Source of the DNA: Phycisphaerales bacterium
Lineage (GTDB): Bacteria; Planctomycetota; Phycisphaerae; Phycisphaerales; UBA1924
Length of the DNA stretch: 54,356 nucleotides
NCBI GenBank assembly: GCA_017640485.1
Contig: JAEPQP010000005.1
Span: forward strand, 1-54,356
Direction: 5' to 3'
Part shown: positions 12,637 through 17,240 of the stretch, piece by piece
Position numbering within the stretch: the stretch's first letter is position 1
Layout of the letters: the number at the start of each line of letters is the position of its first letter
The notes under the pieces: model-generated
The model's database searches: none
Told to the model about the DNA's origin: nothing
Seen by the model: the letters and a program-made list of their open reading frames with translations, nothing else
Translations under genes and position numbers: made by a program

Positions 12637-13761
12637 ATGGCTTACACCGCGCTCGCTCGTAAACACCGCTCACGCACCTTTGATACCGTCATCGGACAGG
12701 AACCGATCGCCAAGACGCTCCAGGCCGCGATTGATTCGGATCGTGTCCATCATGCGTACCTGTTCATCGGGACACGCGGGGTCGGGAAGACCTCGATGGC
12801 GCGGATCTTCGCGAACGAACTCAACAACCCGGATCACAAGGACGACATCGCCAACGCGGTCTTCTCGGGTCAAGACACCGATGTCATCGAGATCGACGCG
12901 GCGTCGCACAACAAGGTCGAGGAAGCTCGCGAGTTGATCGCGAACTCCGCGTACCGACCGATGCGTGGACACTACAAGATCTACATCATCGACGAGGTCC
13001 ACATGCTCTCGACCGCGGCGTTCAACGCGCTGCTCAAGACGATGGAGGAGCCACCCGAGCATGTGAAGTTCATCCTCTGCACGACCGAAGCGCACAAAGT
13101 CCCCGCGACGATCCAGTCGCGCTGCCAGCGGTTTGATTTCCGCAATATCCCGGCGCCGAGGATCGCGGAGCATCTCTCGGCGTTGCTCGATCAAGAAGGA
13201 TTCAAAGCAGACCAAGAGCTGGTCTTCACACTCGCTCGGCTTGGGAACGGATCCATGCGCGACGGGCTCTCGCTCCTCGATCGGCTCATGGCGTCTGGAG
13301 AGAAACAACTCACCGTACAACTCCTCGAAGAACTGCTCGGACTCCCAGATCGCACGATCGTCGGCGAGTTGATTGATGCAATCGCGGGCGGAGATCCGGC
13401 GACTGTGCTCCGCGCTACGGGTCAACTCCTGAGCAAAGGGACAGCACCAGAGCAGGTCCTCTCAACGCTCCTCGAGCGGTTCCGCGATCTCATGGTCCTC
13501 GGCGCGTGCGGCGTGGATACGGATCTGGTCGAACTGTCCGATGATGCTCGCAAGAACGAGCTCGAACGCGCGCAGCAGTTCGACGCCGCGGCGATCGTGC
13601 ACATGATCGCGCTGTGCGAATCGGTCCAACGAGCACTCAAGTCATCCCCGGCCCCTCGCGCCCTGATCGACGCGTGCATGGTCCGGCTCGCGATGACGGA
13701 GAAAATTGCTGATCTGACTGCGCTGGTCCAGAGCGGAACGCCAAGCGGAAAAAAATCCTGA
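12637..13761 (+). CDS. dnaX: DNA polymerase III subunit gamma (zero-frame product of dnaX)
   Basis: A 374-residue clamp-loader ATPase. It has YTALARKHRSRTFDTVIGQ at the start, Walker A GTRGVGKTS (about 46-54), DEVHMLS (Walker B), sensor 1 CTTEAHKVP and the SRC arginine-finger motif QSRCQRFDF. A helical collar domain (about 240-360) follows. It loads the sliding clamp within the replication holoenzyme. The four cysteines of the zinc module that normally lie between Walker A and EIDAASH are all absent. The zero frame ends at TGA 13759-13761, directly after seven adenines, giving a gamma-like product. A -1 shift there adds the tau tail. Confidence 0.93.
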   Translation: MAYTALARKHRSRTFDTVIGQEPIAKTLQAAIDSDRVHHAYLFIGTRGVGKTSMARIFANELNNPDHKDDIANAVFSGQDTDVIEIDAASHNKVEEARELIANSAYRPMRGHYKIYIIDEVHMLSTAAFNALLKTMEEPPEHVKFILCTTEAHKVPATIQSRCQRFDFRNIPAPRIAEHLSALLDQEGFKADQELVFTLARLGNGSMRDGLSLLDRLMASGEKQLTVQLLEELLGLPDRTIVGELIDAIAGGDPATVLRATGQLLSKGTAPEQVLSTLLERFRDLMVLGACGVDTDLVELSDDARKNELERAQQFDAAAIVHMIALCESVQRALKSSPAPRALIDACMVRLAMTEKIADLTALVQSGTPSGKKS

Positions 13762-13802
13762 GGGCGGCGTCGGCTCCAGAAACACTCAGCCGACCGTCGC
13801 CC
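13749..13802 (+). other. dnaX: Programmed -1 ribosomal frameshift signal in dnaX
   Basis: Seven adenines (13749-13755) sit in phase as A-AAA-AAA. A six-base spacer TCCTGA contains the zero-frame stop. A stem-loop then pairs 13762-13775 with 13788-13802: 14 bp with one bulge and one G-U, and a 12-base loop. This is the known geometry of bacterial -1 frameshift sites and of the E. coli dnaX site. Transcript slippage adding one A, as in Thermus dnaX, would give the same product. No stimulatory upstream ribosome-like site is evident. Confidence 0.8.
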
Positions 13803-14096
13803 ACATCCAACACTTCGAAAACACCAAGCAAGCCGAGGGTACAACCGAATCCTGAACCGGTGCGCCACGAAGCGCCCGAGACAGAGCGGACACCAGGCAG
13901 GCGGGTGGATTTCAATCCATCCCCGGCTCCAAAGCCGTCCACACCCACGCCCGCTCCTGAACAGGAAGCTCCGCAGGAGCCGATCGCGCCGCCGAGCAAT
14001 CTGCCGACCCCTGAAGAAGCGTCGGAGCACCCGCTGGTTCAAGCGGTTCTCAAGACATTCGACGGCACTGTGAAGAATGTGTATCCACGAAGGTAA
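13755..14096 (+). CDS. dnaX: Tau-specific C-terminal extension of DnaX (-1 frame)
   Basis: This frame is entered by the -1 shift at the A7 run and runs for 113 residues to a stop at 14096. It opens with ILRAASAPETLSRP, is rich in Pro, Ser, Thr and Glu (APKPSTPTPAPEQEAPQEP), and ends in a small folded-looking segment, HPLVQAVLKTFDGTVKNVY. In other bacteria the tau tail is a flexible linker leading to parts that bind the polymerase and DnaB. The final segment here is a plausible contact peptide, but that is inference. Codon use and the absence of any other gene in this 335-bp stretch before ybaB support translation. Confidence 0.75.
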   Translation: MLRAASAPETLSRPSPTSNTSKTPSKPRVQPNPEPVRHEAPETERTPGRRVDFNPSPAPKPSTPTPAPEQEAPQEPIAPPSNLPTPEEASEHPLVQAVLKTFDGTVKNVYPRR

Positions 14097-14101
14097 TCAT
14101 C

Positions 14102-14473
14102 ATGCTCGACAAACTCAAAGCGATGCAGGCACTCGGCTCGCTGATGAAGAACAAGGAACAGCTCGCTGAAGCGGGTGACCGGATCAAAGCCAAGATGGAC
14201 GCGATGCGCGTCGAGGGCGAAGCCGGGGGCGGTGCGTGCAGAGCGATCGTCAACGGCAAAATGAAACTGCTGGATCTCACACTCGACCCCGCACTCCTCT
14301 CAGGGATGGCGGTCGATGACAAAACCCGAGAGCTCGCGACCACGCTGATCAAGGACGCGATCAACAACGCGACCGACAACGCTCAGCGTCAGGTCCAAGC
14401 GATGATCGCGAAGGAAGCGGAGGAGATGGGTCTGGGTGATCTCGCTCCGCAGCTCGGCGGACTCCTGACTTGA
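14102..14473 (+). CDS. ybaB: YbaB/EbfC family nucleoid-associated protein
   Basis: A 123-residue protein that begins MLDKLKAMQALGSLMKNKEQL and has the family core of an amphipathic N-terminal helix, a short beta sheet (GACRAIVNGKMKLLDLTLDP) and C-terminal helices. These dimeric proteins bind DNA with little sequence preference. The gene lies five bases after the tau stop; dnaX-ybaB adjacency is one of the most conserved bacterial gene pairs and supports the call. The usual third partner, recR, is not next. The stop overlaps the TTG start of the NUDIX gene. Confidence 0.88.
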   Translation: MLDKLKAMQALGSLMKNKEQLAEAGDRIKAKMDAMRVEGEAGGGACRAIVNGKMKLLDLTLDPALLSGMAVDDKTRELATTLIKDAINNATDNAQRQVQAMIAKEAEEMGLGDLAPQLGGLLT

Positions 14474-15195
14474 ATCCAGCCGTGCGTGTTCAACAGACCG
14501 CGGGTCCGCTGTGCGTGCGGATCGATCGAGAACCGGTCGAGCTCCCGACCCAGCACACCGATCCGGTCGAGCATGCATGGTCGCGGCTTCAAGCCTCCAA
14601 CCCACGCTACTTCAACGGTGGGATCCTCTCCTTTGCATCGTTCGATGTGAACTCAGGAACAATTCACGCACGAGCCGAGCAGTACAAGCACCATGCTGTA
14701 CGCGAAACAGTTGATCTCGGAGTAACCCTTCTTGCGGTCACCGGCGTGCTCGTTGCACGCGATCAAGACGGAATCGAACGATTCATGATCGGCAAGCGAT
14801 CGCCGACGACGCATCGGTACGGGAATCTCTGGGAGTTCGGTCCCTGCGGCGGGATCGACCAGCCCGCTACTGATGTCCAGATGCTCGACCAAGAGATGAT
14901 CCTGCAAGAACTCCGCCGAGAGTGCATCGAGGAAGCGGGGATCGATCTGAGCAGCTCATCCATCACACCGATAGCGCTGGTCCATGACGATTCGGTGGGG
15001 TCGGTGGATGTCGTTTATCGCGTGCACCTCGCGTCGATCCCCCAGCAGCGTGCAAACTGGGAGTATCTGGAGTGCGACTGGTTGAGTCTGAGCGAACTCC
15101 AGGAGCGGATCGGAGCGGACCCAGATCAGTTCATCCCGACCGCGATCCCGATTGCTCGCTTGCTGGACGCACTGAAGGATGAACCGAGCGACTAG
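14470..15195 (+). CDS. NUDIX hydrolase with an extra N-terminal region
   Basis: A 241-residue protein whose central NUDIX domain carries RRECIEEAGI, the core REUXEEXGU motif, after a Gly-rich strand (LWEFGPCGGID). The gap between that Gly and the REUXEE part is longer than the canonical GX5EX7, so the box is slightly irregular. The first 75 residues are not part of NUDIX and I cannot assign them; such regions often set substrate choice. The substrate (a nucleoside diphosphate derivative) cannot be told. The start is a TTG overlapping the ybaB stop (TTGA), which suggests coupled translation. Confidence 0.8.
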   Translation: MNPAVRVQQTAGPLCVRIDREPVELPTQHTDPVEHAWSRLQASNPRYFNGGILSFASFDVNSGTIHARAEQYKHHAVRETVDLGVTLLAVTGVLVARDQDGIERFMIGKRSPTTHRYGNLWEFGPCGGIDQPATDVQMLDQEMILQELRRECIEEAGIDLSSSSITPIALVHDDSVGSVDVVYRVHLASIPQQRANWEYLECDWLSLSELQERIGADPDQFIPTAIPIARLLDALKDEPSD

Positions 15196-15204
15196 GATTG
15201 CGTG

Positions 15205-15849
15205 ATGTCCAACCAGACGACGACCGACACAACGACCGACCCATCGAGTTCGCTCGCGGATCAGACCATCGCGGGCTATCTCGGTGCGCTCAACTCCAAA
15301 TCCCCCACTCCCGGAGGGGGCGCTGTCGCGGGAACCTGCGGAGCGACCGGCGCTGCGGTCGCCGGGATGGTGGTGCACTACACGCTCGGCAAGAAGAAGT
15401 ACGCCGAGCATGAAACAGCCAACGCGAAGCATCTCGAAACCCTCTCTGCAGCGCAGCGAGCGTTTCTGACGCTCGCCGACGACGACGCTCGCGGCTACGG
15501 CGAACTCAACAGCCTGTGGTCGCTCCCCGAGTCGGACCCAGTCCGGAAGGAGCGATGGTCAGCCGCGGTTGCTGGAGCGATCGCGCCTCCGAAGCAGATG
15601 CTGAGTCTGTGTGTTGAAGTCATGTCCGTCATCGAAGGTCTGGTCGAAACCACCAACACGCAGCTCAAATCCGATCTCGCGGTCGCGGCCCACACCATCC
15701 GAGGCGCGGCGCACAGCGCGGCGTGCAACATCCGGATCAATGTGCCGCTCCTTGAAGAAAGCCAACAACAGGATGTGCTTGAAGACTCCGCTCGCAAGCT
15801 CTCCATCATCGACACGCTCTGCGAGCGCATCGAGGGATTGACACAATGA
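15205..15849 (+). CDS. Formiminotransferase-cyclodeaminase-like (FTCD_C) protein
   Basis: A 214-residue, mostly helical protein with the family signature SPTPGGGAVAGTCGATGAA near residue 35, then long helices including LSLCVEVMSVIEGLVE. FTCD_C proteins include the cyclodeaminase part of the histidine-degradation enzyme and methenyltetrahydrofolate cyclohydrolases such as FchA. The single-domain form here would act on folate one-carbon units if the active site is kept, but this is not certain. The ATG at 15205 follows AGGA by eight bases. It overlaps the next gene by four bases. Confidence 0.75.
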   Translation: MSNQTTTDTTTDPSSSLADQTIAGYLGALNSKSPTPGGGAVAGTCGATGAAVAGMVVHYTLGKKKYAEHETANAKHLETLSAAQRAFLTLADDDARGYGELNSLWSLPESDPVRKERWSAAVAGAIAPPKQMLSLCVEVMSVIEGLVETTNTQLKSDLAVAAHTIRGAAHSAACNIRINVPLLEESQQQDVLEDSARKLSIIDTLCERIEGLTQ

Positions 15850-17240
15850 CCGACACCCCTCCAGTCCAGCTTGAGTCCTTCCCGGCACAGGTGGTTGATC
15901 TCGCGCAGAACCCCAAGATCATCGAGCTCGCATCCGTGCTCAAAGCCGCGAGCTCGACGACGGATCCAGCGCAGATGCTCAGCCAGTTCGGTCCTTGGGT
16001 CGCGAATCGCTCCCCGCGTGATGCGTTTGTTTCGATCTCTCGTCGTGGTCTTGCAGATGGTTCGTACAAGTTCACACGCGTGATGAACAACGCGGGCGGG
16101 AGCCCAGACCCTGAGAACCCGACACCAAGTCCTTGGGACTCCTGGGACACACTCGAGACCCATCAAGGCGGGCTCGTGTGGGAACTCATCAAGACCCCCG
16201 AACCCAAACTCATCAATCATGTGGATCTCATGCAAGACCCGGTCTTCTGCAAAGTGCTGGGTCCGATGTGTTCGGAGCTCAAAGCGATCGCCGCGATCCC
16301 GGCGTACGAGAACGGCCAAGCTATCAACTGGTCGCTGAGTTTGTACAAAGATCCCGAATGGAACAACCTCAGCGAGTTTGAGATGGGGTTCCTCGATCTG
16401 AACATGATGGGCACCGCGACGCGGAACCTTGTCTCGCGCCGGAAAGTCGAAGAACTCAACGACGAACTCGAGAAGCAACTCAGCGAGATGGGTCGTATCC
16501 AACGCGCCCTGATCCCGGCGACCAATCCATCGCTCGATGGATACTCACTCGCGACGAGTTACGAGCCGAGTATGCAAGCGGGTGGTGATTTTTACGACTA
16601 CTTCCAGTTCCCCGATGGTCGTCTCGGGGTCATGATCGCGGATGTCGCGGGTCACGGCGCCGCAGCCGCGACTGTCATGGCGATGATGGGCGCGTACATC
16701 CGCGCCTACGGCGAGCGCCAAGAGATCATGCAATCGGAACCCGATCCGGTGGATGCCGCGAAGTACCTCAACGCGGCGCTGCTGAGTTCCCCGCTCCCGA
16801 GTGTGTTTGTCACGGCGTTCATCGCGGTGCTCGACCCTACGAGTGGGACAATTAACTGGACGCGCTGCGGTCACAACCCGCCTCGGATCCGCGGCGTCGA
16901 TGGGACAATCCGCACGCTCAACGAACCCGGGACTCTCCCGCTTGGGGTCATTGAAGATATCCCGGCACTCGCGCTCTCGAGCACACTTGAGGAGGGCGAA
17001 ACCCTGATCCTCTACACCGATGGCATCACAGAAGCCTCGCGACCCGCCGACAACGAGAGCGGGTTTGAGATGTTCGGAGAGGACGGGCTCGATAACGCGC
17101 TCACCAAGTGCACCGGTCAGCCCGAATGTGTGATCGACTCGATCAACACCGCCCTCAACGAGTTCACTGGGACGAATCTCCAGAACGACGATCGCACGAT
17201 GGTGGTGGTCCGTCATACGCATCCGGATGATCCATCATGA
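15846..17240 (+). CDS. SpoIIE/RsbU-type serine phosphatase with GAF-like sensor domain
   Basis: A 464-residue cytoplasmic protein. Residues 1-200 look like a GAF-type sensor. A coiled coil (KVEELNDELEKQLSEMGRIQ, about 200-220) leads to a PP2C-like phosphatase domain. Metal-binding motifs are present: GGDFYDYF, IADVAGHGAAAA, LYTDGITEA and NDDRTMVVV. RsbU-like enzymes dephosphorylate an anti-anti-sigma factor in partner switching, but no STAS or anti-sigma kinase gene is adjacent, so the target is unknown. It starts on the stop of the FTCD_C gene (ATGA) and ends on the start of the YkgJ gene (ATGA), so the three are probably translated together. Confidence 0.87.
   Translation: MTDTPPVQLESFPAQVVDLAQNPKIIELASVLKAASSTTDPAQMLSQFGPWVANRSPRDAFVSISRRGLADGSYKFTRVMNNAGGSPDPENPTPSPWDSWDTLETHQGGLVWELIKTPEPKLINHVDLMQDPVFCKVLGPMCSELKAIAAIPAYENGQAINWSLSLYKDPEWNNLSEFEMGFLDLNMMGTATRNLVSRRKVEELNDELEKQLSEMGRIQRALIPATNPSLDGYSLATSYEPSMQAGGDFYDYFQFPDGRLGVMIADVAGHGAAAATVMAMMGAYIRAYGERQEIMQSEPDPVDAAKYLNAALLSSPLPSVFVTAFIAVLDPTSGTINWTRCGHNPPRIRGVDGTIRTLNEPGTLPLGVIEDIPALALSSTLEEGETLILYTDGITEASRPADNESGFEMFGEDGLDNALTKCTGQPECVIDSINTALNEFTGTNLQNDDRTMVVVRHTHPDDPS

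Follow-up and report, generated by a model that had tools for sequence, protein, structure and literature searches.

In Escherichia coli, dnaX is decoded with a ribosomal frameshift at the heptamer A_AAA_AAG, accompanied by a stem-loop and an SD-like element about 10 nt upstream (PMC5009743). The dnaX gene of Thermus thermophilus depends on transcript slippage at a run of nine adenines (A9), with tau encoded in frame and gamma derived from slipped transcripts. A reversed arrangement, where recoding is needed for tau, was reported for 17 genes from 12 genera, mostly at A10 runs and ascribed to transcript slippage, and RefSeq annotated none of these 17 genes (Antonov 2013, PMC3711429). Shift-dependent production of tau with a gamma stop immediately behind the site seems to be restricted to many fewer bacteria, one of them being Chlorobium phaeobacteroides with an unpublished A7 candidate for the reversed arrangement that has E. 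coli-like stimulators (Atkins 2016, PMC5009743).

The Phycisphaerales dnaX studied here resembles that of E. coli in the gene itself, the junction, the in-phase heptamer, the downstream stem-loop and, in most family members, the SD-like element, but tau would come from the shift and gamma from standard reading, and the heptamer is never A_AAA_AAG. Two open reading frames, access to tau via recoding and a gamma stop close behind the site are shared with the reversed genes of Antonov and of C. phaeobacteroides, the latter also having A7 in common. In contrast to the Antonov genes, the trait spans a whole family of another phylum and takes the form of a ribosomal-type cassette with swapped heptamers, not A10 slippage. 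An A-run late in dnaX and two products are likewise found in T. thermophilus, where, however, tau is in frame and neither phase nor hairpin is needed. The reversed layout is already published; what is new is the clade, the heptamer swaps and the signs of mechanism replacement. Our literature search found no paper joining Phycisphaer-, dnaX and frameshift.

The dnaX locus and its conserved junction

The window, i.e. the whole stretch of 54,356 nt that was analysed, contains a dnaX gene, and a search of the genome revealed no second full copy. Its zero-frame protein matched the dnaX_nterm model TIGR02397 with 373.7 bits (curated cut-off 250) as well as the E. coli gamma/tau structures (1.5e-66), and the Pfam domains DNA_pol3_delta2, gamma3 and lid were detected. 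The zero frame ends with GGA AAA AAA TCC TGA, the first A of the A7 occupying a third codon position. An in-phase A7 with a zero-frame TGA inside a 6-nt spacer was found exactly where the original prediction had placed it, and so was a -1 frame of 113 residues closing five bases before ybaB, which brings full tau to 486 aa (373 + 113; Table 1). Genes for a NUDIX protein, a formiminotransferase-cyclodeaminase-like protein and a SpoIIE phosphatase were located 3' of ybaB (window positions 14470-17240), where the usual recR is not present.

Table 1. Features of the dnaX locus in window coordinates.
Feature	Position	Strand	Evidence
dnaX zero frame (gamma, 374 aa, ATG to TGA)	12637-13761	+	TIGR02397, Pfam and PDB matches
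Weak SD-like purine stretch, possible part	13731-13741	+	weak pairing with CACCUCCU (about -3.5 kcal/mol)
Slippery heptamer A_AAA_AAA, in phase	13749-13755	+	run start at phase 2 in 111/111 family A7/A8 split loci
-1 frame tau tail, 113 codons plus TAA (14094-14096)	13755-14096	+	selection, homology
6-nt spacer TCCTGA with zero-frame gamma stop TGA (13759-13761)	13756-13761	+	stop position conserved
Putative stimulatory stem-loop (arms 13762-13775 and 13788-13802)	13762-13802	+	folding, conservation, covariation
Conserved C-terminal tau motif HPLVQAVLKTFDGTVKNVYPRR	14028-14093	+	family-tail profile
ybaB/ebfC, next gene 3'	14102-14473	+	PF02575, 8.3e-13

For comparison, dnaX loci were gathered from genus, family, order, class and phylum by similarity to the window gene, nearly all of them from draft or metagenome assemblies. 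The GTDB family of the window (f1) yielded 135 distinct dnaX junctions, 127 split between two frames and eight not, with six of the split ones running off the contig before the end of the tail. All 127 split heptamers are in phase (111 AAAAAAA, 14 GGGAAAA, 2 CCCAAAA) and invariably end in A; the AAAAAAG of E. coli was absent. In the 54-kb window, A7 occurs as three overlapping matches compared to 1.46 expected, so that the run alone is near chance and its significance lies in the combination, the phase and the conservation in 127/127 split relatives. The site thus has the conserved, in-phase X_XXY_YYZ form by which -1 programmed ribosomal frameshift sites are recognised. The gamma stop follows 0 or 3 nt past the heptamer in 117 of the 121 family split loci with a complete tail, while zero-frame stops deeper inside the same tails have a density of 0.018 per codon; hence, the early stop looks selectively kept. 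A gamma stop right behind the site, followed by a long shifted tau tail, is the configuration of a reversed dnaX.

Thinning at >82% protein identity within type left 82 split and seven one-frame f1 rows. In a protein tree, f1 forms a clade (SH-aLRT 99); one-frame genes characterise f4, the other class families sampled and those phylum outgroups that were included in the tree. GGGAAAA requires six and CCCAAAA two changes on this quick tree with many weak branches, suggesting that the heptamer was swapped repeatedly. Short f2 and f5 genes (zero frame of 472-493 aa) were classed as one-frame on the grounds of ending at ybaB or of excessive length, and short zero-frame dnaX from other Planctomycetota (L301-L312) that have neither heptamer nor A-run were omitted from the tree. 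Three of the one-frame f1 members (L273, L281, L283) carry an A-run, a strong downstream hairpin and a nearby -1 stop, and judging from this arrangement their products may have the same roles as in E. coli.

Homopolymers are error-prone and the window belongs to a draft assembly in 250 contigs, so the split might be ascribed to an A8 misread as A7 during sequencing or assembly, or to a recent pseudogene. However, 127 distinct loci share it, and these stem from many assemblies, among them the chromosome-titled CP054186 (L119) and single-contig genomes; the tail, too, is under selection (see below). Eight adenines had been proposed as one observation that would overturn the prediction; this does not hold, since several congeners carry A8 yet keep the frame split, the extra A substituting for the next base, and A7 versus A8 is therefore not decisive. 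Given the conservation and the selection, we reject both readings and give them practically no chance.

Putative stimulatory elements and the tau tail

The predicted 14-bp stem-loop is present, its 14 pairs being arranged as 8 + 6, interrupted by a single bulged C and including one G.U pair. With a minimum free energy of -26.1 kcal/mol (z -5.3), it was not equalled in stability by any of 200 shuffles. Across the family, windows downstream of the site reach a mean of -26.9 kcal/mol (z -2.34) compared to -17.9 in other windows of the same tails, and the outer stem starts at most 5 nt from the stop in 116/117 loci (directly behind it in 81, after 1 nt in 25). Pairing between the arms was stronger in native combinations (-14.9) than when arms were swapped between loci (-9.3) or in control windows (-7.0). 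In the genus, the fifth pair of the stem is G-C in nine sequences and A-U in six, i.e. a compensating change, and none of 500 shuffles reached the observed number of two-sided covariation cells (six), a test that is modest because five of the eight pairs are invariant and two-sided change occurs in one pair. A structure folding beyond shuffles and controls is thus located a few nucleotides behind the heptamer, as in programmed frameshift sites. A search of Rfam with window positions 13600-14200 gave no match even at E 10. The alignment of orthologues suggested with the original prediction turned out in its favour, as heptamer, adjacent zero-frame stop, hairpin with compensating change and -1 tail are all kept.

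Complementarity to the 16S 3' end peaks in family windows ending ~8-11 nt before the heptamer (-6.1 vs. a background of -1.5), and 71% of family loci but only 14% of control segments have an SD-like score of -6 or below. Most members of the family therefore possess a strong SD-like element, whereas that of the window itself is weak (-3.5). An anti-SD sequence was located in 52 of 61 genomes, among them that of the window. When E. coli dnaX was run through the same script as a control, its heptamer was recovered in the same phase with an SD value of -6.3.

The -1 tail is, judged by its substitution pattern, under purifying selection: dN/dS amounts to 0.04-0.22 in the closest genus pairs with the hairpin excluded, and differences within the genus accumulate at the third codon position of the -1 frame (3223 vs. 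1749 and 1231 at the others). A profile built from the family tails matched the C-termini of one-frame DnaX from f1, f2, f4, f5, f6 and other Planctomycetota with E-values down to 5.5e-15. The C-terminal extension is thus homologous to other DnaX C-termini, which identifies the -1 tail as the C-terminus of tau. This homology to a region internal to one protein also speaks against a reading in which ribosomes terminate at the gamma stop and re-initiate there, so that the tail would be a small protein of its own. In favour of re-initiation, 21/117 family loci have ATG or GTG as the -1 codon that overlaps the stop. However, in 74/117 the -1 frame offers no ATG, GTG or TTG around the junction, nor does it in the window, and re-initiation would leave the heptamer without a purpose. 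We regard it as highly improbable.

Tails in the genus of the window are short (about 100-125 aa) and consist of a linker and the terminal motif. Longer tails in other genera of the family (e.g. L119, L128, L030, L033) additionally contain a central domain of ~70 aa that the window genus lacks and that had no confident match in Pfam or PDB. No Pfam domain was found in the window tail itself, the longer tails gave only sub-threshold Pfam matches (the best to a DnaA_N-like STICHEL domain, E 6e-4), and no credible match emerged when the tails were used for a profile search of PDB; therefore, we assign no named domain to the tail.

Probable ribosomal frameshifting and the alternative of transcript slippage

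Taken together, comparative sequence evidence makes it very likely that this dnaX undergoes a programmed -1 ribosomal frameshift with the roles known from E. coli reversed. In this scenario, a ribosome with tRNA-Lys(UUU) on AAA AAA would meet A_AAA_AAA while the GC-rich hairpin stands at the mRNA entrance. The fraction that slips would move back by one base and translate 113 more codons to give tau, whereas non-slipping ribosomes would decode TCC and terminate at TGA to give gamma. That shifting leads to the longer tau and normal decoding to the shorter gamma, as had been predicted, is supported by the orthologues and the homology of the tail. Both products would presumably be incorporated into the clamp loader.

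The window genome encodes two tRNA-Lys genes, CUU and UUU. Going by known decoding rules, AAG would be decoded by tRNA-Lys(CUU), whose pairing with AAA is poor, and the presence of this tRNA beside UUU, unlike in E. coli with its single tRNA-Lys, fits both the final A of the heptamer and the lack of AAAAAAG.

Alternatively, RNA polymerase might add or drop adenines at the A7 and thereby put gamma and tau in one frame. Such transcript slippage is already published for related layouts, some of it is conceivable at A7, and a long A-run sits at the same place of dnaX in related families: 47 of the 50 one-frame loci sampled in the class outside f1 have A9-A10 at about codon 372-412. But slippage runs are often eight or longer (PMC3711429), compared to which A7 is short. 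Moreover, slippage needs no fixed phase, non-homopolymer swaps, hairpin or SD-like element, and in the A10 class these features are either missing or show no order: the A10 runs of f6 and a few others, split or one-frame, occur in mixed phases, as do A9-A10 runs elsewhere in the order, and downstream folding in the A10 sister class (-13.6, z -0.34) reveals no hairpin excess, with a slight SD signal. We thus consider transcript slippage at this site unlikely. Non-homopolymer heptamers, the fixed phase and the stimulators favour ribosomal frameshifting, and the ribosome is inferred as the place where slippage would occur.

Possible evolution of dnaX recoding in Phycisphaerae

The distribution of the layouts makes us lean towards a replacement of mechanisms. 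Phycisphaerae would keep dual gamma/tau production nearly everywhere, and one family seems to have exchanged transcript slippage at A9-A10 for a ribosomal frameshift at the same codon position. For this, an A9-A10 site, the ancestral state as taken from outgroups and not reconstructed, might have been shortened to an in-phase heptamer, with an SD-like element and a hairpin being gained and tau becoming the shifted product. If true, this would be a natural exchange of one recoding level for another in an essential gene. Irrespective of such a replacement, a large, mostly uncultured clade would join the few groups thought to produce tau by shifting. The conserved layout further points to strong selection for keeping gamma as well as tau and is thereby relevant to the debate over the importance of gamma. 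A10 slippage, A7 frameshifting, frameshifting at GGGAAAA or CCCAAAA, and one-frame forms would constitute a comparative series within a single order, useful for studying how recoding signals evolve and change level. In practical terms, DnaX in such genomes would be prone to truncation by gene callers.

Long A-runs also mark dnaX beyond the family of the window. In the one-frame A9-A10 genes of the class outside f1 (e.g. L130, L135, L161, L297, L203), out-of-frame stops are mostly found close behind the run, a layout that resembles slippage of the Thermus type with gamma as its product. Sister-family genes split at A10 with tau in the -1 frame (L133, L134, L137-L140, L201, L202, L316, L317) have no hairpin excess and appear to represent a slippage form of the reversed layout. 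Finally, dnaX from other classes of Planctomycetota (L212, L218, L219) has an A9 in the same region, again with out-of-frame stops nearby.
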